Position numbers and translations under genes: made by a program. Below are positions 29,298 through 39,717 of a DNA stretch of 64,000 nucleotides, piece by piece; position 1 is the first letter of the stretch; each line of letters opens with the position of its first letter. Source of the DNA: Myxococcales bacterium (GTDB lineage Bacteria; Myxococcota_A; Polyangia; Nannocystales; Nannocystaceae); contig JAAZXR010000012.1 in NCBI GenBank assembly GCA_014240065.1, positions 1 to 64,000 on the forward strand, written 5' to 3'. The notes below the pieces were generated by a model. That model made no database searches, was not told where the DNA came from, and worked only from the letters and a program-made list of their open reading frames with translations.

Positions 29298-30401
29298 TCA
29301 GGCGGGGTCGGGTTTCGGCGTGGTCGGGCCGCTCTCCGGCAGCTGCGGCGCCTTGATATATTCCGCCGGCAGCTCGCCCGTCAGCGAGTCAAGGAAGGCG
29401 AGGATGGCGGCCTTCTCGCTCCCCGACAGGGTCCCCTTCGTGGTCTGGTGCTCCGCCATGATCTCCACCACCTTCTCGAGGGTGGCGATGCTCCCGTCGT
29501 GGAGCCACGGGCCCGTCTTCGCGACGTTGCGCAGGGTCGGCACCTTGAAGGACTGGCGATCCGCCTCGTTTTTTGTGAGGGCGAAGCGTCCGTCATCCTT
29601 GGTGTCGTAGGGCTTCACCGCGCCGAGCTTTTGATACATCGTCCCGCCGAGCGCGGGGCCCGTGTGACATTGGATGCACCCGGTGTCGATGAAGATCTGC
29701 AGTCCGCGCAGGGCGCTCTCGTCGATGCCCGCGTCGTTCCCTCCGAGGAAGTCGTCGAACGGGCTCGGGGTGACGAGGCGCCGCTCGAACGCGCCGATGG
29801 CGGTGGCCATGTTGTCGTAGGTGATCCCCGATTCGGGGAAGGCCTTCTTGAATTGTTCTTGATACCCCGGGATGGAGGCGAGGGTGGCGACGACCGCCTC
29901 CTCGCTGGGCATCGCCATCTCGATCGGGTTGAGCACCGGGCCCTTGGCTTGGGCCTCCACGTCGGCCGCCCGACCGTCCCAGAACTGAGCGAGGTGGAAG
30001 GCCGCGTGGTACACCGTCGGACTGTTTCGATCGCCGCGCTGTCCCTTATGCCCCGGGGAGGTCGGCTCTCCATCCACGCCATACCTGGCGAGGTCATGGC
30101 AGGTGTTGCAGCTGACATCATGGTTTTTGGACAAGCGCGGGTCGAAGTACAAGCTGCGACCGAGCGCGACTTTCTCCTCGGACATCGCGTAGGACTTTGG
30201 TGTGGCCTCCGCCGGGGAGACGGAGAAATATGTGAGGGCCTGTTTCCTCACGGAGGCGGGGTCCAGGGCTTTTTGGGTGGCCGACGATGATGAGGACACG
30301 CCTCGCTTCGCGCGACGCTCGGGTTTTGTTTCGTCTTTCGATCCGCAACCGACGACACAGAGGGCGACGACGCTGAGGAGTACCGATTTGAGGTGACCCA
30401 T
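29298..30401 (-). CDS. Di-heme cytochrome c peroxidase (CcpA/MauG family), lipoprotein
   Basis: The 367-residue protein has a lipoprotein signal (Val-Val-Gly-Cys-Gly) and two c-type heme sites, Cys-Asn-Thr-Cys-His near residue 95 and Cys-Ile-Gln-Cys-His near residue 240. Asp-Pro-Arg-Leu-Ser precedes the first heme and a long inter-heme segment contains Tyr-Phe-Asp, as in bacterial peroxidases. It would reduce peroxide in the periplasm with electrons from small cytochromes, or belong to the MauG-like oxidising branch. A TAGGGT box lies 7 nt upstream of its ATG with no Shine-Dalgarno. Confidence 0.88.
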   Translation of the reverse strand: MGHLKSVLLSVVALCVVGCGSKDETKPERRAKRGVSSSSSATQKALDPASVRKQALTYFSVSPAEATPKSYAMSEEKVALGRSLYFDPRLSKNHDVSCNTCHDLARYGVDGEPTSPGHKGQRGDRNSPTVYHAAFHLAQFWDGRAADVEAQAKGPVLNPIEMAMPSEEAVVATLASIPGYQEQFKKAFPESGITYDNMATAIGAFERRLVTPSPFDDFLGGNDAGIDESALRGLQIFIDTGCIQCHTGPALGGTMYQKLGAVKPYDTKDDGRFALTKNEADRQSFKVPTLRNVAKTGPWLHDGSIATLEKVVEIMAEHQTTKGTLSGSEKAAILAFLDSLTGELPAEYIKAPQLPESGPTTPKPDPA

Positions 30402-30615: not shown

Positions 30616-31167
30616 GTGCTTCCAGCTGTACCCACGGGCAGGTCACGACCCAATCGTAGGCGACGCGTTTCTCGAGGGATCGTGGCCGTCGCGACTGGAC
30701 TGCTGCTCGGAGGGGTCGTGGCTTGCGGCGCCGACGACGCCGCCTCGATCACGGACCGCCTGTGGGTGAGCGACGTGCCGTCGAACCCGAGAGAGGAGAT
30801 TTCGGCCTTCGCCATCTCCAATCTCCGCGGACGCAAACTCGGCGCCCTGTATCAGGGGTCGTTGTATCAGGGGACGCAGCGCGGATTTCGATTGGAGCTC
30901 GAAGGTCGCCGCGCCGTCTTCGAGATGCTGCAAGACGGATCCCGCCATCCGGTGACCGTTCACACTTGCAAGCCGACGACGGGTTTTCATTTTTGTATCG
31001 AACTCGAGGGAGATCCGGCCGGCGGGCGACGCTACCAGTCTCGCAAGCGCTGGTCGCTCGGTCGCTCGAAGGGGGGGCGCGCCGAATCCTCGGTGGTGCC
31101 GATGATCCCGTCACTGCTTGAGGAGTTCGAGCTCGCCGCGGTGGAGGTGGCGCCTCCGGCTCCCTGA
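30616..31167 (+). CDS. Small lipoprotein upstream of the GHKL ATPase
   Basis: GTG 30616 gives a 183-residue protein with a very Arg-rich n-region, hydrophobic core and a Cys at Gly-Val-Val-Ala-Cys-Gly. A TTG at 30574 could add 14 residues. The mature part has a short duplicated phrase (Leu-Tyr-Gln-Gly twice) and a Cys pair about 8 residues apart (Thr-Cys-Lys ... Phe-Cys-Ile). It ends in a Pro/Ala tail. No family recognised. The ATPase gene begins 10 bp after its stop, so it may share an operon. Confidence 0.6.
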   Translation: MLPAVPTGRSRPNRRRRVSRGIVAVATGLLLGGVVACGADDAASITDRLWVSDVPSNPREEISAFAISNLRGRKLGALYQGSLYQGTQRGFRLELEGRRAVFEMLQDGSRHPVTVHTCKPTTGFHFCIELEGDPAGGRRYQSRKRWSLGRSKGGRAESSVVPMIPSLLEEFELAAVEVAPPAP

Positions 31168-31177
31168 CCCGAACACC

Positions 31178-32881
31178 ATGGACGAAGCGGTCGAACAGAT
31201 TCTCGCTCGTCTGATCGGGCAATTTGGGTCGCCCTACGATTTTTGTCGAGAGCTCGTTCAAAACGCCATGGACGGCGGCGCCGGGCGGCTGGACATCAGT
31301 TTTGACGTCCATCGGGGGGGCGACGACGAGGTCGTGTTTGAGCTGCGGTTCGAAGACACGGGCAGGGGGATGACGGAGGAGGTGGTGCGGGACGAGTTGA
31401 CGCGCCTGTTCGCCTCGTCCAAGCGACACGACCGAACGTCGGCCGGCGAATTTGGGGTCGGCTTCGTGAGTGTGTTTGGCTGGCGCCCAGACGCGGTAGT
31501 GTTACAGACCGGGCGTGAGGGGGAGGCCTGGGAGCTCATCTTCGACGGGAGCGCGAGATTTGAGCAGCGACGGATTGACAACCCGCTCGAGGGGACCTCG
31601 ATCTTGTTGCTCAAGCGAGGGGCGCGGGCCGACGCGTCGGAGGTCGTGGGCGAAGTCACCCGCGCGCTTTGTAAGTGGTGCCGCTATTGTCCCATCGAGG
31701 TCATCTTTGAGGACCTCTTCCACGGGTCGCCGCCGCAGCTTATTTCGGTCGGTTGGCCACAGGGCGACGCGATCTGCGAGGACGAGGAGCCGCTCCCCGG
31801 GGGGAAGTTGCTCGTGTCGATGTGCGCCGACCCCCGCGTGGTGCTGATGCGCAGCGGCCTCATATTGGAAGAGGGCACTCTCGCGGAGCTGTTCCCCTCG
31901 GTGGCCTCGCGCTTGCCACCCGGAGCCGAGCAGCACCTTCGGATCTTGGCCGAGACATCGGAGTTTGAGACCAATATTGCGCGCGATAAGATCACGCTTC
32001 GTGCCGCTGTCGAGCACCTCGCGCCCCGGATCGTACGCGCCTTCGCTCGTATGCAGCGGGCGCTGTTCTCGATGGCCGAACAGACCGCCGCCGGGCCGTC
32101 GCGCGCTGCGGAGACGCACTCGCACGCGATGATGCATCTGTGTCTCGCCGCGCAGCTCCCTAACGGTGAGGTGATCGACGAGCTCGATCGCCGCTCCATC
32201 CTGCGAACGCTGCACGATGAGCTCCCGGTCAGCTTGAGGGTGATCGAGCGCGCGTTGGAGGGGCTCCCCCTGATCGTCGCGGACGGGACGTCCGAGCCGC
32301 TCAGGGGGGGGGGCGCAGAGGTCGGCGAGTCGCTCGCCAGCTGTTCGGGGCCTCGTTTCCCCGTCGTGCGCGCCGACTTCGTGCGGGATTTGCCGTGGCT
32401 TCGGATCCTCGGGAGCTCCATCGATCGTGGCGTGGTGCCAGCGGCGAGGGTGCTGTTCGCCGTGGAGCCGAACGAGGGGATGGCCCTAGGGATCTGCGGT
32501 GGCGTGGAGTCGATGCTGCGCGCGCTCGGCTTCGAGATTCACGGCGTTCGAATGGCGAAGTTCGCGGGGGCTCACCACGAAGACGGACCGATCTGCGGCT
32601 TCGACACGGGGAGCGGCGCCCCCTTCGCATGCGCAGAGTTTGGCGCGGAGGTTCGCCGCCGGCTTCATGACGCGCGGGTCTGGATCCGCGAGGACCACAC
32701 CATCGTACAAAACGCGCTCAGCATGGGCGGCCTCGATCCTGTGTTCGCGGGGATGTCGATCGTCGCGGGGATGTCACCGCAACTGGGGCTGTCATCCGCA
32801 GATCTCGCGACGCTCGGGGACGCTGTGGAGCGAGACCTGATGGGCGGCTCCAAACGCGGCAGACTGGGGCCCGCGACGTGA
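31178..32881 (+). CDS. HSP90/GHKL-type ATPase, first gene of an unusual pair
   Basis: ATG 31178 gives 567 residues opening directly with a GHKL domain: Arg-Glu-Leu-Val-Gln-Asn-Ala-Met-Asp (N-box with catalytic Glu and Mg-binding Asn, about residues 24-32), Phe-Glu-Asp-Thr-Gly-Arg-Gly-Met (G1), an ATP-lid Ser-Ser-Lys and Gly-Glu-Phe-Gly-Val-Gly-Phe (G2). The next section resembles the HSP90 middle domain, with a Met-Arg-Ser-Gly-Leu-Ile strand and Asn-Ile-Ala-Arg-Asp-Lys-Ile matching the Asn-x-Ser-Arg segment. The last 220 residues are unrecognised. It is probably ATP-driven and dimeric. Its stop overlaps the start of the 1100-residue partner. Confidence 0.8.
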   Translation: MDEAVEQILARLIGQFGSPYDFCRELVQNAMDGGAGRLDISFDVHRGGDDEVVFELRFEDTGRGMTEEVVRDELTRLFASSKRHDRTSAGEFGVGFVSVFGWRPDAVVLQTGREGEAWELIFDGSARFEQRRIDNPLEGTSILLLKRGARADASEVVGEVTRALCKWCRYCPIEVIFEDLFHGSPPQLISVGWPQGDAICEDEEPLPGGKLLVSMCADPRVVLMRSGLILEEGTLAELFPSVASRLPPGAEQHLRILAETSEFETNIARDKITLRAAVEHLAPRIVRAFARMQRALFSMAEQTAAGPSRAAETHSHAMMHLCLAAQLPNGEVIDELDRRSILRTLHDELPVSLRVIERALEGLPLIVADGTSEPLRGGGAEVGESLASCSGPRFPVVRADFVRDLPWLRILGSSIDRGVVPAARVLFAVEPNEGMALGICGGVESMLRALGFEIHGVRMAKFAGAHHEDGPICGFDTGSGAPFACAEFGAEVRRRLHDARVWIREDHTIVQNALSMGGLDPVFAGMSIVAGMSPQLGLSSADLATLGDAVERDLMGGSKRGRLGPAT

Positions 32882-35800
32882 CCTTTGTGTCCGAGATCGG
32901 GGCCTTGGTCGCGGCCCATTCCATGGGCGAGGACGGGAGCCTCAAGACCTTTACGGTCGCGCGCACCGAGGCGGTGCTCAAGCTCCGCGCGTCGTCTCCG
33001 TCGGAGGGGGTGGGGTGGGTGCTCTCGTTCATACAGGCCATGCGATGCGCCTGCGCAGACATGTCCATCGCGCTGAGTCCATCGGCGAGTGGCGCCGTCG
33101 AGACCTTGGAGATCGTCGCGAGCACCGAGCCGTCGGCGTCCTCGGAGGAGCGGAGTCGGTGGTCGCCCGAGCTCGTGGGTCTGCTGTCGGATGGCCTGCG
33201 TGAGGTGCCCGAACAGCCGGATCAGTTCGACGCGGATCGTCTGACGCAGCGGCTCGGGGCCGCGTTGAACCACCTGCTCGCCACGGATCCCATGCACGTC
33301 GAACTCAAGATCGGCGGAGTCGGGCGTCGCTGGGTACGGCGGGAGCGCGGCGCGTTCGGCCGTGACGAGGATCCCTACGAGTCGATGTCGTGCCCCCCGG
33401 AGGTCGAGGCCGGCGTCTTCGCGCACCTGACCGTATCGCGCGCGAGGGGGCTCGGTGCCCGGTTGCGCGCGCTGTTTGGGGGCGGTGACGCGTGGGCGAT
33501 GGAGGTCGCGGCGCTCGTCCGCGCGCGGTCGCTGGGGGTGAAGGGCGAGGGGTTCACCCTCACCCTCGACCGCGCGTGGCGCCCCCCCACAACCATCCGC
33601 ATGGACGGGCTGGGCTGGTTTGTGCCGACAGAGGGGGAGGCGTTGTGGCTGGTCCGCGGGGGCGTGAAGATCTTCGACTTGGCCGAGGCGTGTGAGGGGC
33701 GGGGCGTGAACGCTCGCGCCGGGATGGTCTACGCGCCCAGCGTGTTGACGACGACGTTGGGGGACGCCCCGCGAATCAATGAGGCCTTCGACGCGGTCGT
33801 CGCGTGGCTCGACGAGGCGGCCGCCGGCGCGGCGCTGACCTCCGACGGCGGAGGTGAAGCGTGGCTGGTCCACGACCCGCCCACGACCTTCGCCACTGTG
33901 GGTGGATTTGGGCGCGCGCTCAACTTTGAGCGGATCGAGCGGCGGGTGCAGCGTGACGGAGAGATCCGCTTCGTGTGGCGTCATCAAGCGCGGGGGGGGG
34001 CCAGGCTCCACGGAGAGATGTCGGGCATGGACCTGGAGGTGCTTTGCTGCACGCCCTCTGAGGTCGCGGCGTTGCGCGCTCGCCTCCCGCCGGACACGGT
34101 GATTCCGCACGCGCTGGTGGGGCGCGCACCTCGCCGGGGGAGCGTCCAAATCGAGAAGCTCAGGATCCACAGCCTCGACCCCGTGCCGCTGGTGGAAGAC
34201 AGCCAGCTCATTCATCGGGGATCGCTGGGCACGGTGAGGCTCCGCACCAATATCCGGGCGTTCATCGCGAGCGAGGAAGCGAGCGCGCGAGCCCTGCGAG
34301 CGCAGGCGGAGGGGTACCTGTGTGTGACCATGCTCGGCAGAGAGGTCATCCGGCTTCGAGGTTTTGATCCAGGCCTCGTGCTGTGGGCGGAGCTCCACGC
34401 GGCCGATGCCCTGCGACTCCCGAGCATCGCAGCCCTAGAGAAAGACCAAGGCTTGCTCAAGGAGCTGCATCGCCGGGCGCGCCACGTGCTGTCCGATGTG
34501 ACGGCGGATCTCATGCGGCGCGTGCTGGCGGAGAGCGAGCCGACAACGCTCCCGTGGTTGCGGCACCAGCTCGAAGAGGTGGGCCCAGACACCCTCGCCC
34601 TCGCATACGAGACGAACGACGCGGGAGACGCAGGGCTGACGTGGTCCTCTCCGCCGCTGCTGCAAGTCCCGGTGGGGGTCGACGAGGGCGGCGTGGTCAC
34701 GGCTGAGGCGCTCTTGCGGCGGGTGGCCAGCGCCTCCATTCGACGTCCGGTCGAGATCGTTCCTGGTCAAGCCGCGCATCTGTACGGCATCTCGACGGCG
34801 CGAGACCCGGCCCTCGCGGGGATCTTGAGGGTGATCTTGCCGTCGTCGAAGCTGGCGTTCTCGATGGCAGAGGAGCTGTGGGCGTTGCCCACGGCCTGGT
34901 CAGAACCTCTGGGCCGGCGACGCATGTCGCGAGAGGATGTGGAGCGCGCGCTGGCCACGAGCCTGCACGATCCGGGGGCGAGGGCGCGACTCGTGACCCA
35001 TTTTTTGATCAGCCGCGCGGGCTCCCTCGAAGATTTTGGGCTGGCCAAGGTCCGCCTCTTCGACCGCTACGATCCGTTCTCCAAGTCCCCGCACTCCCTC
35101 CTCAGTTTCGACGAGATCGTGGCGGCGGGCGAGCGCCTCCCGTGGGTCTTTCCCACCGCGGCGACGCGCTCGCTCACCTCACCGGTCCTGTGTGTGACGC
35201 CTGGCGTCGCCGCGTTCCTGGGCAAGCTGACGGCGCCGCCTCGCGTCTCGCGTGGCCGCTTGTTTCGCCCCCGCGTCTCCGCGGCGAGCAGGCAGCGCGC
35301 GGGAGGTCCCAGGGGACTCAAGGGGGCTTCGCCGGACCGGCGGCCCCGTCGAATTGTTGAGCGGACGATGGACATGTCTCTCGCGCGTGGGGAGGTCTAT
35401 ATCGACGGAGGTGACACCCCAGGCATTGAGCTTTGGCACGGGGGCCTGCGCGTGGAGCGTGTCGTTTTGCGCGGCGCCCTCGGCGTCGTCTCTGGCCAAG
35501 TGACGGTGAAGACTCGCGTGATCCCCACGGACGGACCGGGGCGCGAGGCGCTCGTCGGAGTCCTGCGTCGCGAGGCGGAGCCGCTCGTGGAGGCGCTCGC
35601 CACGTTCCGTCTGCTCGCGTCGAGAGAGGACCACGCCGCCGCCTCGGCGAAGGCCGCGTGGGACGCGATGCTGGATGCGCGTGATGAACACGATTCGCTC
35701 GCGCTGCAGCGGCGTCTTCAGGCGTCGCGCAGCGACCCAACCGACTTCAAGGGGGGCGCAGAGGAACGCGCGCTGCGAGAGGTGGCCAGGATCGCCGAGG

Positions 35801-36180
35801 AGAAGCTCCCGCGGGGGCTGTGGATTTTGAAGATGCTCACCCGCGGCTTTGACGTCGAGCCGAGGACCGCGCGCTTCTCGAAGAAGCTCCTGGAGATGGG
35901 GGGGCCGCGGCATCGTGATGGCAAGCTGACGGCGCGGCTCGGGTTGCGTCACCGCTGGAGTCGCCGGGTGCTCGGACGCGGGATGAGCGTTCGGGCGAAG
36001 GCGCCGCCGCCGTCGGCGTGGGAGCTGCTCGTATGTACTTCGCTGATGATCGCCGAGCTCGGTCGATGGCCGGAGCTCGCGCGCAGGAGCTCGCGTCACC
36101 GGCGGGGCCGGGTCTTGAACATCATGGTGGGGTTGCTGAGCGAGATGCACACGCGAGACTTGTCGCGGGACAAGCCCTAG
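32878..36180 (+). CDS. 1100-residue protein of unknown family, coupled to the GHKL ATPase
   Basis: GTG 32878 overlaps the ATPase stop (GTGA), so the two proteins are made together, probably as a complex. No signal peptide, TM segment or catalytic motif is visible. Residues about 45-80 (Ser-Phe-Ile-Gln-Ala-Met-Arg) track the ATPase N-box helix and strand but lack its Glu and Asn, suggesting a dead GHKL copy. Two later stretches, around residues 255-305 and 845-905, repeat a Gly-Gly-Val/Leu strand followed by an Asp-x-Pro/Arg and long helix, recalling the HSP90 middle-domain segment. An Arg-rich segment lies at about 785-825. The C-terminal 200 residues are helical and basic. Confidence 0.75.
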   Translation: MTFVSEIGALVAAHSMGEDGSLKTFTVARTEAVLKLRASSPSEGVGWVLSFIQAMRCACADMSIALSPSASGAVETLEIVASTEPSASSEERSRWSPELVGLLSDGLREVPEQPDQFDADRLTQRLGAALNHLLATDPMHVELKIGGVGRRWVRRERGAFGRDEDPYESMSCPPEVEAGVFAHLTVSRARGLGARLRALFGGGDAWAMEVAALVRARSLGVKGEGFTLTLDRAWRPPTTIRMDGLGWFVPTEGEALWLVRGGVKIFDLAEACEGRGVNARAGMVYAPSVLTTTLGDAPRINEAFDAVVAWLDEAAAGAALTSDGGGEAWLVHDPPTTFATVGGFGRALNFERIERRVQRDGEIRFVWRHQARGGARLHGEMSGMDLEVLCCTPSEVAALRARLPPDTVIPHALVGRAPRRGSVQIEKLRIHSLDPVPLVEDSQLIHRGSLGTVRLRTNIRAFIASEEASARALRAQAEGYLCVTMLGREVIRLRGFDPGLVLWAELHAADALRLPSIAALEKDQGLLKELHRRARHVLSDVTADLMRRVLAESEPTTLPWLRHQLEEVGPDTLALAYETNDAGDAGLTWSSPPLLQVPVGVDEGGVVTAEALLRRVASASIRRPVEIVPGQAAHLYGISTARDPALAGILRVILPSSKLAFSMAEELWALPTAWSEPLGRRRMSREDVERALATSLHDPGARARLVTHFLISRAGSLEDFGLAKVRLFDRYDPFSKSPHSLLSFDEIVAAGERLPWVFPTAATRSLTSPVLCVTPGVAAFLGKLTAPPRVSRGRLFRPRVSAASRQRAGGPRGLKGASPDRRPRRIVERTMDMSLARGEVYIDGGDTPGIELWHGGLRVERVVLRGALGVVSGQVTVKTRVIPTDGPGREALVGVLRREAEPLVEALATFRLLASREDHAAASAKAAWDAMLDARDEHDSLALQRRLQASRSDPTDFKGGAEERALREVARIAEEKLPRGLWILKMLTRGFDVEPRTARFSKKLLEMGGPRHRDGKLTARLGLRHRWSRRVLGRGMSVRAKAPPPSAWELLVCTSLMIAELGRWPELARRSSRHRRGRVLNIMVGLLSEMHTRDLSRDKP

Positions 36181-37043: not shown

Positions 37044-37321
37044 GGCGTGTCGGCTTATAGATCAGGCGAGGGCCGGGTGGGGCTCGCGAGCGCAAGATAT
37101 TGAGTCGGGAGCCCGGTGATCGCCATGAAATCGCTTCAATGGGTGTTGCCTCACATCTCGCGGGCCAGGGCCGGGCGTTGTCATCAATTGTGTGTGGTGC
37201 GTACATTCGCCGCCTCCTGCGGGGATAGGGCGCCGCGAAGGGCGTTTCGCGCGCGTCGCGGTCGTCTTGTGCGGCGAGGTTGACCATGTCGCGCTCGCTA
37301 GGAAGCCCGCTTGAGCGCTGC

Positions 37322-37327
37322 TATATT
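37322..37327 (+). promoter_or_regulatory. -10 box immediately before a lipoprotein start
   Basis: TATATT ends 6 nt before ATG 37334. There is no Shine-Dalgarno between them, so transcription would start at or next to the ATG. It is the best -10 match in this 290-bp intergenic region. Confidence 0.4.
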
Positions 37328-37333
37328 TTTCGC

Positions 37334-38482
37334 ATGCGTTTTGTTTGTCTTTCTCGATCAGTGCCTGTCCTCGCCTGTCTCACGCTGCTCGCGGGGGGTT
37401 GCACAAAGGACAGCCGCACCGAGTACGACACCAGCTCTGGTACCGGAGTCAGCGATGATGCTTCCACGGGGGGGAACGACACCATCGGGGATTCGGCCGG
37501 CGACAACACAAGCGATGGACCCGGTACGTCGTCGGACGGCACCGACGGCGGCGAGAAGTTCGACACCATGCAAGCCGAGGGGGGAACCGGCGACGGCGAC
37601 GGCGACGGCGACTGCACGGTCCCCGAGCACGCGCCGTGCGACTCGGGAAATCCGACCTACGGCCAAGCGATCGGTCTGGGCTGTCCGGGTGAGCTCCCGT
37701 TCGTCCCGACCTTCTCGGGCGGGAATGGGACCATCGGCCTGCGCAACAGCTTCGGTCCGACGAACACATTTAACCCGCGGGAGGGCTCGTCCTATGTGGT
37801 CATCAGCAGCGGACTTGTCGGCGATCTCGACACGCCGAATCTGAGCACCTCGCCGAGCTCATGCAACACGAGCGTCGGCTCATTCCCGAACGGCGGGGTT
37901 CTTCCGGCGCCGTTGGTGCCCATGGACGTGGGGAACCAGGACTGCACGCAGAACCCCGCGCTGATCGGGACGGGCGACTGCTCCAACACCATCGAGTCGC
38001 AGTTTACGCAGGGCGGCGGGGTCGGCGGCAGTGACTATACAGAGCTGCGGCTGCAAGACATCACCGTGCCCGGTGGCGCGACGAGCTTTAGCTACGACCT
38101 CGCGTTCTTCTCCACCGAATATCCGAACTACTTCGGGACTGTCTACAACGACATGTACGTGGGCTGGCTCGAGTCCATGCAGTGGACCGGCAACATCTCC
38201 TTCGATGAGCAGGGCAACCCGATCTCGCTCAACGCGGGGTTCTTGGACTACAACGCCGGGATGACGGGGCAGCAGGTGCCCGAGCTCGCGAACACCTGCG
38301 TGAATTACAACGCGGGGACGAAGTGGCTCACGAGCACGGCGCCGGTCGTCCCCGGCGAGACCATCACGGTGGTGTTCGCGGTCTTCGATCTGTCGGACGG
38401 AGTGCTCGACAGCTTCGTCTTCCTCGACAACTTCCAGTGGGGCTGCGAGGGCGGACCGCCGACCACGACGCCCGCGGGCTAG
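37334..38482 (+). CDS. Choice-of-anchor-L-like lipoprotein, first of a tandem pair
   Basis: ATG 37334 gives 382 residues: signal peptide, lipobox Leu-Ala-Gly-Gly-Cys, a roughly 75-residue Gly/Ser/Thr/Asp linker ending in Gly-Asp repeats, then a beta-rich domain. The domain has Phe-Asn-Pro-Arg-Glu-Gly, paired Cys, Tyr-Asp-Leu-Ala-Phe-Phe-Ser-Thr-Glu-Tyr-Pro, Tyr-Asn-Asp-Met-Tyr-Val-Gly and a closing Leu-Asp-Ser-Phe-Val-Phe-Leu-Asp. That pattern fits the choice-of-anchor L extracellular domains frequent in Myxococcota. Probably surface-exposed; ligand unknown. A clear paralogue follows. Confidence 0.75.
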   Translation: MRFVCLSRSVPVLACLTLLAGGCTKDSRTEYDTSSGTGVSDDASTGGNDTIGDSAGDNTSDGPGTSSDGTDGGEKFDTMQAEGGTGDGDGDGDCTVPEHAPCDSGNPTYGQAIGLGCPGELPFVPTFSGGNGTIGLRNSFGPTNTFNPREGSSYVVISSGLVGDLDTPNLSTSPSSCNTSVGSFPNGGVLPAPLVPMDVGNQDCTQNPALIGTGDCSNTIESQFTQGGGVGGSDYTELRLQDITVPGGATSFSYDLAFFSTEYPNYFGTVYNDMYVGWLESMQWTGNISFDEQGNPISLNAGFLDYNAGMTGQQVPELANTCVNYNAGTKWLTSTAPVVPGETITVVFAVFDLSDGVLDSFVFLDNFQWGCEGGPPTTTPAG

Positions 38483-38610: not shown

Positions 38611-39717
38611 GTGACGCCCCAAATTCAACCGCGCGCTCTCCAGCTCGCCGGCGTCGTCGCCGTGCTGATCGGCGCGGGGTGTACGAGGGAGGGGGATGCT
38701 CGCATGAGCGCTTCGGCGACGATCAGCTCTGGGGGGAATGAGGGGATCGGCACGGGGGGCACAGGTGGAACCACCGACGCGGGGACCACCACGACCAGCG
38801 ATGACGGACCGAAGCTCGACGTGCTAGACGCGGGCGAGGAGGCGGATGGCAGCGACGGCGGAGGTTGCACGATCCCCGAGCACACGCCGTGCGATGAGCT
38901 ATCGACGGCGACGCCCGGTGAGTCGATGGGGCTCGGTTGTCCGGGCGAGCTGCCGCTCACGCTCATCTTTAGTGGGAGCCCTGACGCGGTAGGAGTGCGA
39001 TCGGGGTTTGGACCCACGACGGCGTTCGATCCGCGCGAGGGGGAGTCGTTCGTGGTGCTCAGCACCGGGCCAGTGTCCGAGCTCGACACTCCGAATATGG
39101 GACCGACGCCGGTGCTTTGTAGCGGGAATCTCGGCGCAGCCCCGGACGACGGCAATTTGCCACCGCCGCTCGTGCCGATGAATGTCGGCGTTCAAGACTG
39201 CGCCGAAGCGCCGGCGCTGGTCGGCACAGGGGACTGCTCCAACACGATTCAAGGCCAGTATGAGGAGGGGGGGGCGCTCGGCGACTACTCAGAGCTTCGG
39301 CTGGAACAGATCCAGGTCCCCGATGGCGTGACGAGTTTCAGCTATGACTTCGCGTTCTTCTCGACCGAGTATCCAGAGTTTTTTCAGAGCCCGTACAACG
39401 ACATGTATGTGGGCTGGCTCGAGTCCATGCAGTGGACAGGGAATATCTCATTCGATGAGGAGGGGAACCCGATCTCCCTCAACGCTGGATTCCTCGACTA
39501 CAAGAACGGGGCGGTGGAGCTGAATAACACCTGCGTTAACTTCAACGCGGGGACCAAGTGGCTCACGAGCACAGCGGCGGTGACTCCAGGAGAGGTGATC
39601 ACGCTCGTCTTTGCGATCTTCGATCTCAACGATTCAAAGCTCGATTCCTTCGTCTTCCTAGACGCGTTCCGGTGGGGGTGTGAGGGCGGCGCCCCGTCGA
39701 CGATGCCGGTGGGATAG
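38611..39717 (+). CDS. Choice-of-anchor-L-like lipoprotein, second of a tandem pair
   Basis: This 368-residue paralogue of the preceding gene has a signal peptide with lipobox Ile-Gly-Ala-Gly-Cys, a Gly/Thr/Ser linker and the same beta domain with conserved Cys, Pro-Glu-His and Tyr-Asn-Asp-Met-Tyr-Val-Gly-Trp-Leu segments. The two proteins agree nearly residue for residue over the C-terminal half, while linkers and signal peptides have diverged. This copy has a shorter Asn-rich loop near the C-terminal third. GTG start; 128 bp separate the two genes. Confidence 0.75.
   Translation: MTPQIQPRALQLAGVVAVLIGAGCTREGDARMSASATISSGGNEGIGTGGTGGTTDAGTTTTSDDGPKLDVLDAGEEADGSDGGGCTIPEHTPCDELSTATPGESMGLGCPGELPLTLIFSGSPDAVGVRSGFGPTTAFDPREGESFVVLSTGPVSELDTPNMGPTPVLCSGNLGAAPDDGNLPPPLVPMNVGVQDCAEAPALVGTGDCSNTIQGQYEEGGALGDYSELRLEQIQVPDGVTSFSYDFAFFSTEYPEFFQSPYNDMYVGWLESMQWTGNISFDEEGNPISLNAGFLDYKNGAVELNNTCVNFNAGTKWLTSTAAVTPGEVITLVFAIFDLNDSKLDSFVFLDAFRWGCEGGAPSTMPVG

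Follow-up and report, generated by a model that had tools for sequence, protein, structure and literature searches.

What does a bacterium do with an Hsp90-like ATPase whose gene runs directly into that of a protein of 1100 residues? The question is raised by three consecutive reading frames in the window, by which we mean the whole 64,000-nucleotide stretch of DNA analysed here from a Nannocystaceae bacterium. The first (30616-31167) encodes a lipoprotein-like protein with the lipobox LLLGGVVAC. The ATG of the second, which encodes the 567-residue ATPase (31178..32881, + strand), lies 10 bp past the lipoprotein stop codon, and the third, which encodes the large partner (32878..36180, + strand), starts at the GTG of a GTGA sequence and overlaps the end of the ATPase gene by 4 nt. 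These reading frames, strands and overlaps, including the GTGA coupling, are as given in the initial annotation, which had suggested a chaperone-like or defence complex with a partner of no recognisable family and the lipoprotein as a possible member. Homologues of the three genes stand in identical order in other genera, so the arrangement is not due to chance. We found no published account of the ATPase-partner pair in the literature searched, with most subscription journals outside its coverage.

The ATPase: an intact ATP site and a predicted Hsp90-like fold

The smaller protein is predicted to be an active GHKL (Bergerat-fold) ATPase on the basis of its N-box, G1 and G2 motifs and its Pfam matches (HATPase_c_3 at 2.7e-9, and HATPase_c likewise above cut-off). 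The N-box reads ELVQNAMDGG (E25 and N29; 31250..31279, +), the G1 box DTGRGM (D60, G62 and G64; 31355..31372, +) and the G2 region AGEFGVGFVS (G90, G93 and G95; 31442..31471, +). E25 and N29 are found in 55/55 sampled ATPases covering the site, the G1 and G2 residues are invariant among 56, and T140 is equally kept wherever it is covered in this sample of 55-56. Also invariant in 56 ATPases is R269, in the sequence ARDK of the middle domain (31982..31984, +), a candidate catalytic arginine that, judging from its position and loop sequence, probably corresponds to Hsp90 Arg380. The predicted model of the protein (mean pLDDT 79) resembles Hsp90 chains throughout its length (best E 5e-19) and all 50 of its listed PDB matches belong to the Hsp90 family, which points to an N-terminal Bergerat domain followed by an Hsp90-type middle domain. 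The intact motifs and the Hsp90-like middle segment noted initially are therefore supported by profile matches, residue conservation and predicted fold. Orthologues are found across Nannocystaceae and relatives across Myxococcota.

The initial annotation was also right that this ATPase is not HtpG, since it scores 25 bits against NF003555 (cut-off 371), over positions 71-206 only, while the true HtpG (681 bits) is encoded on another contig of the same genome. What the two have in common is the Bergerat-fold ATP domain, the Hsp90-like middle region and the candidate conserved middle-domain arginine. HtpG is a homodimer, and we know of no large pseudo-ATPase partner for it. A match to a housekeeping family, which had been named as an outcome that would speak against a new system, was not obtained, as no such family reached its NCBIfam cut-off. 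By profile, the closest family of ATP domains is the sacsin-type domain NF047352, which the ATPase passes by 1 bit (51.0 bits for the protein and 55.0 in the genome search, cut-off 50). Sacsin strings together Hsp90-like N-terminal and middle modules with a conserved arginine (PMC9880540). The ATPase is not sacsin proper, with 23 bits against the 32.8 cut-off of Pfam SACS (PF25794), and the sacsin combination of HEPN, J and repeated SRR in one chain is not present, with neither a HEPN nor a J domain found by Pfam in the ATPase or the partner; moreover, the active and degenerate modules reside here on separate genes. The HSP90 family PRK14083 (NF010683) is of similar length and resembles the ATPase N-terminally (34 bits over residues 17-179), far under its cut-off of 455.

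The large partner: a probable diverged Hsp90 with a degenerate ATP site

Searches of Pfam, NCBIfam, PADLOC and PHROGs with the partner gave no match, nor did a PDB sequence search, and a single-sequence scan of the genome contigs returned nothing, while an alignment scan with the ATPase did find matches. The view that the partner lacks a recognisable family is nevertheless overturned by profile comparison and its AlphaFold model, in which it appears as a diverged Hsp90-like protein with a Bergerat N-terminal domain and an Hsp90-type middle domain. The model is of moderate confidence (mean pLDDT 64.5, pTM 0.47) and mainly mixed alpha/beta. Its best Foldseek matches are TRAP1, HtpG, Hsc82 and GRP94 (E 4e-5 to 1e-3), with topoisomerase VI-B as the second fold family; the PDB alignments extend over ~370-550 columns of the Hsp90 N-terminal and middle domains, with low TM-scores against complete Hsp90 chains. 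Residues 30-370 have their helices and strands in the same order as the ATPase model. From this order and the PDB alignments we place the Hsp90-like region at approximately residues 30-550 (32965..34527, +, limits estimated).

Comparisons of HMMs in local mode lead in the same direction. The partner families are mutually homologous at 97-98% probability and partners from other lineages match the ATPase at 98% (c9), 97% ('big') and 94% (ph2), while a direct comparison of the window-type partner with the ATPase gives a weak 41%, so that its kinship rests on these intermediates. Both proteins thus come out as Hsp90-like in predicted fold. The ATP site of the partner, in contrast to that of the ATPase, appears degenerate. 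The N-box asparagine is missing from every partner with a readable N-box, its place in the window being taken by Ala54 in the equivalent sequence SFIQAMRCAC (33025..33054, +), and DxGxG is absent from the partner, which therefore lacks the motifs by which a GHKL ATPase is recognised.

ATPase and partner form a conserved two-gene unit

Among 57 ATPase loci the partner gene is next on the same strand in 44, is cut by the contig end in three and is separated from the ATPase by one small gene in six, all from Nannocystis; one locus lies at a contig edge and three have no neighbouring partner. Across Myxococcota, the partner is thus directly downstream or one gene on at 53 of the 56 evaluable loci, which answers the question of adjacency posed in the initial annotation. 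In the genomes of the three exceptions (G007, G009 and G010) a partner is encoded elsewhere. Viewed from the other side, by a wide search with a 683-residue fragment of the partner as query, 41 of 51 partner places have an adjacent ATPase, and an adjacent pair is present in 32 of the 35 genomes where the partner was matched, so the partner is not found mostly without the ATPase. Many pairs share the 4-nt overlap. In the congeneric genomes G004 and G005 the locus is collinear and both genes are jointly absent from G005, where the lipoprotein gene is ~0.2 kb from the next gene, compared to ~4.7 kb with the pair in G004. This joint absence from an otherwise intact locus, together with co-occurrence and adjacency, establishes the ATPase and partner as a unit. 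Both genes are under purifying selection among Nannocystis species (dN/dS ~0.33-0.35).

The partner diverges fast: members of its family share ~30% identity, compared with 54-68% for the neighbouring peroxidase and exonuclease, and such a rate is unusual in a general chaperone. Many Nannocystaceae genomes hold 3-7 ATPase-type paralogues, and one partner carries an FHA domain.

Proposed mechanism

What is the role of an apparently dead relative alongside a predicted active ATPase then? We propose, with a probability of about 55%, that the two proteins come together as the subunits of an Hsp90-like heteromer that acts as chaperone or scaffold. The 567-residue subunit would bind and hydrolyse ATP at its intact Bergerat-fold site, completed by the middle-domain arginine. 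The 1100-residue subunit would be a paralogue of ancient origin that shares the N-terminal and middle fold, lacks a functional ATP site and has extra C-terminal domains. It would probably pair with the ATPase to provide the scaffold or bind the client, and when ATP drives the ATPase subunit to close, this movement would act on whatever the partner holds. Overall, the complex may serve as a cytosolic chaperone or assembly machine. The chaperone-like complex suggested initially remains the best reading, although its large partner is no longer of an unknown kind. A wider proposal, to which we give slightly less than an even chance, is that the pair represents an undescribed class of split Hsp90 machines widespread in Myxococcota, in which an active ATPase is obligately paired with a giant pseudo-ATPase paralogue, this paralogue having diversified into several lineages (1000-1800 residues, sometimes with FHA or duplicated copies) that serve different adjacent client or effector genes.

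Alternative roles

An anti-phage or conflict module, with the ATPase as an NTP-driven switch, the partner as sensor or scaffold and lineage-specific effectors upstream, seems unlikely to us. GHKL domains do occur in defence proteins, and the several ATPase paralogues per genome, the rapid divergence of the partner and the FHA domain would suit such a role, as would the gene upstream of the ATPase, which varies by lineage (FAD oxidoreductase, desaturase, peptidase, AAA protein, lipoprotein or ion channels, the last joined into an operon at some loci). However, the genes beside window-type loci on the chromosome (peroxidase, patatin and exonuclease) stay the same from genus to genus, no match was found in IMG/VR viral contigs or, for the phylum-level relatives tested, in 72,556 plasmids and 50,697 phages, and no PADLOC model recurs in the 135 genes surrounding 25 paralogous loci, the Pfam matches of these genes being mostly to housekeeping families. 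In these searches the pair thus showed no association with defence islands or mobile elements, and the suggestion of defence made initially is left without support. TmtA, a PADLOC candidate defence protein, is likewise very large and has a GHKL domain close to its N-terminus, but it matches the ATPase over only ~80 residues of the ATP domain (23 bits) and the partner not at all. Since this match and that to PHROG RIIA are limited to the shared ATP domain, they are not taken as kinship; the weak match to MzaB is likewise confined to this domain.

A nucleic-acid machine, in which the GHKL protein clamps DNA with the partner as accessory, appears improbable. Heteromers of the MutL, topoisomerase VI-B and MORC type are clamps powered by ATP, and in some of them one site is weak or inactive; the topoisomerase VI-B matches of the partner model would fit. 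In contrast to these clamps, the ATPase has a middle region predicted to fold like Hsp90, its best model matches being all to Hsp90; neither protein contains a nuclease, helicase or DNA-binding domain by Pfam and NCBIfam, and the exonuclease of the window is not beside the pair in most genomes. We similarly see little prospect for a membrane-linked regulator of stress or ion flux that gates or assembles membrane proteins encoded upstream. Ion-channel genes of two types directly precede the ATPase at four loci (L057, L062, L064 and L140, gap -4 to 2 nt) or are divergent from it in L143, but none is beside the pair in the window and channels are a minority because most loci have other genes upstream.

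Least probable is a three-gene system with the lipoprotein as membrane anchor, for, even if it adjoins the ATPase in most Nannocystaceae loci, often with a 4-nt overlap, the lipoprotein tracks with a divergent di-haem peroxidase, remaining with it in G005 without the pair and away from the pair in Enhygromyxa and Plesiocystis, other pairs have no lipoprotein, and a lipoprotein acts beyond the cytoplasm, while neither the ATPase nor the partner showed a signal. It is therefore very unlikely to be part of the system, contrary to the possibility left open initially.

Implications

To our knowledge, Hsp90 in bacteria is one protein that forms homodimers, and few dedicated clients of it are known. 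If the heteromeric Hsp90-like machine is real, a two-gene Hsp90 with one catalytically dead subunit would offer a natural heterodimer in which the role of each arm can be dissected, and a bacterial system to set beside sacsin, in which the Hsp90-like repeats resist study. It would also assign a family to more than 1000 residues that no library names. The two-gene arrangement is found in many Myxococcota, and a Nannocystaceae genome can carry several diverged copies of it.

An Hsp90-like ATPase and a degenerate partner

Three consecutive genes lie on the plus strand of the window, which comes from contig C33 of a 4.7-Mb draft genome (completeness 97.7%): a lipoprotein-like ORF (30616-31167), the ATPase (31178, ATG, to 32881) and a large partner of 1100 aa (32878, GTG, to 36180), the last two overlapping by GTGA as the initial annotation had read. 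Among the genomes compared, the order to which this one belongs comprises a single family, whose named loci come from Nannocystis, Enhygromyxa and Plesiocystis, which places it in Nannocystaceae, Myxococcota. The ATPase passes both Pfam HATPase_c_3 and HATPase_c and exceeds the NCBIfam cut-off for the sacsin-type ATP-binding domain by one bit. It scores far under the cut-offs of the HtpG, PRK14083, MutL and topo VI-B models and the true HtpG of the same genome is found on a different contig (681 bits), confirming that it is not HtpG. The family was sampled across Myxococcota in 20-kb loci, giving 56 members. All 55 that cover the N-box keep its Glu and Asn, and the G1 Asp and glycines, the G2 glycines, Thr140 and Arg269 are invariant; the ATP-site motifs first noticed as intact are thus intact in the sampled members. 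Only Hsp90 chains appear among the 50 best PDB matches of the structure model (pLDDT 79, pTM 0.72), and the proposed Hsp90-like middle segment thus stands at the level of the fold. Arg269 is a candidate counterpart of the Hsp90 middle-domain arginine; an arginine of this type was proposed in sacsin too (PMC9880540). The same genome encodes a second, larger sacsin-like ATPase (G000:C181:2604-3056, open frame 1016 aa), and similar proteins of 1000-1050 aa are present in most Nannocystaceae genomes searched.

The partner was originally described as of no recognisable family, and none was named for it in a PDB sequence search, Pfam, NCBIfam, PADLOC or PHROGs, but HMM-HMM profiles and a structure model point to a degenerate Hsp90. 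The profile of window-type partners (c1) matches partner profiles from other ATPase loci with local HMM-HMM probabilities of 97.9% (c8), 98.0% (ph2) and 96.9% (c9), and such other-locus profiles match the ATPase (c9 98.1%, 'big' 97.1%, ph2 93.6%); the direct match of c1 to the ATPase is weak (40.6%). Partners have in common the N-terminal stretch FTVxRxxAxxKxRxFxLxxPxxYxLELVQAAVxxGA, in which ELVQAA occupies the position of ELVQNA in the ATPase; the window partner reads SFIQAMRCAC there, and the N-box Asn is lost in all partners with a readable site. The model of the window partner is moderate overall (pLDDT 64.5, pTM 0.47), reaching pLDDT 70-87 across most of residues 40-300. Its top PDB matches are TRAP1, HtpG, Hsc82 and GRP94 (E 4e-5 to 1e-3), followed by topo VI-B, and the order of helices and strands over residues 30-370 is that of the ATPase model. 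Since these two independent lines, family profiles and structure model, agree, we assign the partner as a predicted pseudo-ATPase relative of Hsp90 with added C-terminal domains. Partner architecture varies elsewhere: at L148:2-5506 a partner of 1835 aa has an FHA domain at its N-terminus and its ATPase is preceded by an AAA-family gene, and at L137:7457-18356 one ATPase is followed by three tandem partner-type genes.

The ATPase and partner form one unit

In 44 of 57 ATPase loci the next gene on the same strand encodes a protein of 750 aa or more, and in three others (L054, L088, L132) the partner is cut by the contig end. Six loci, all from Nannocystis, have one small gene in between (~250 aa, no known family; L076, L085, L086, L089 and also L075, L087), one stops where its contig ends, and the remaining three have no partner next door, their genomes (G007, G009, G010) each encoding a window-type partner elsewhere. 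A partner-fragment match was obtained in 36 of 189 sampled Myxococcota genomes and the ATPase family in about 74 of 361 (rows with E < 1e-25). Adjacency across the phylum had been set beforehand as a check, and the partner occurs mostly with the ATPase: the pair is adjacent in 32 of the 35 partner-matching genomes also searched for the ATPase, which adjoins 41 of 51 partner places, with the partner downstream in 39. The cleanest evidence is a joint absence. G004 has the order peroxidase, lipoprotein, ATPase, partner and two more genes, while the congeneric G005 keeps this order with both ATPase and partner missing, the spacing from the lipoprotein to the next gene being about 0.2 kb versus about 4.7 kb. 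Because of this absence and the adjacency counts, ATPase and partner are one unit.

In other Myxococcota (L134, L136, L138, L141, L145, L146, L147, L148), a recurrent two-gene unit, encoding a predicted coiled-coil of ~350 aa and a protein of ~320 aa, is found no more than a few kb from the pair; neither has a Pfam family, and the unit was not found beside the window pair.

Genomic context and the defence question

The lipoprotein had been considered a possible member of the system, and it usually adjoins the pair. We reject its membership because it stays beside the divergent di-haem cytochrome c peroxidase gene (MauG/CCP; 29298-30401, minus strand) both in G005, where the pair is absent, and in three g11 genomes (Enhygromyxa and Plesiocystis), where the pair has another location. 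Peroxidase and lipoprotein are a conserved pair of their own across Nannocystaceae and are associated independently of the ATPase pair. Related lipoproteins also occur in other Myxococcota; two Cys are conserved in the lipoprotein, which also contains the motif GDPxGxxxYQS.

A role in defence, as initially suggested, would fit the several ATPase-type paralogues found per genome, the variable upstream genes and the fast divergence of the partner (within-family identity about 30%, versus 54-68% for peroxidase and exonuclease). However, window-type loci of different genera have the same chromosomal surroundings (peroxidase, patatin, exonuclease and a family of secreted proteins), and no match was obtained in plasmids and phages, searched at limited reach with a phylum-level relative as query, or in IMG/VR, also at limited reach. 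The 135 genes neighbouring 25 paralogous loci show no recurrent PADLOC model, and their Pfam matches are mostly housekeeping. On this balance defence is possible but not supported. Among Nannocystis species dN/dS is about 0.33-0.35 for both genes, indicating purifying selection.

The window also holds tandem paralogues (37280-38482 and 38611-39717, plus strand) of a secreted protein family with a low-complexity leader; this family recurs near window-type loci. Genes for two types of ion channel immediately precede paralogous ATPases at L057, L062, L064 and L140 (gap -4 to 2 nt), and at L143 one is divergent to the ATPase.

Proposed mechanism

Both parts of the pair belong to a known superfamily, and their pairing, folds and motif states are as observed here; that they represent an active and a degenerate Hsp90-like protein has, in our estimate, a probability of about 0.85. 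The literature searched, which covered subscription journals thinly, gave no account of bacteria with an active/pseudo Hsp90 pair. Hsp90 family members are ATP-driven clamps. Since an active Hsp90-like subunit is encoded with a larger dead paralogue, we suggest that the pair may be a heteromeric clamp: the active subunit would be the arm that runs the ATP cycle, and the dead paralogue would be the arm that holds clients or structural contacts. We lean slightly towards this mechanism as a whole, in which the pair would combine a heteromeric clamp, an ATP cycle and a chaperone role.
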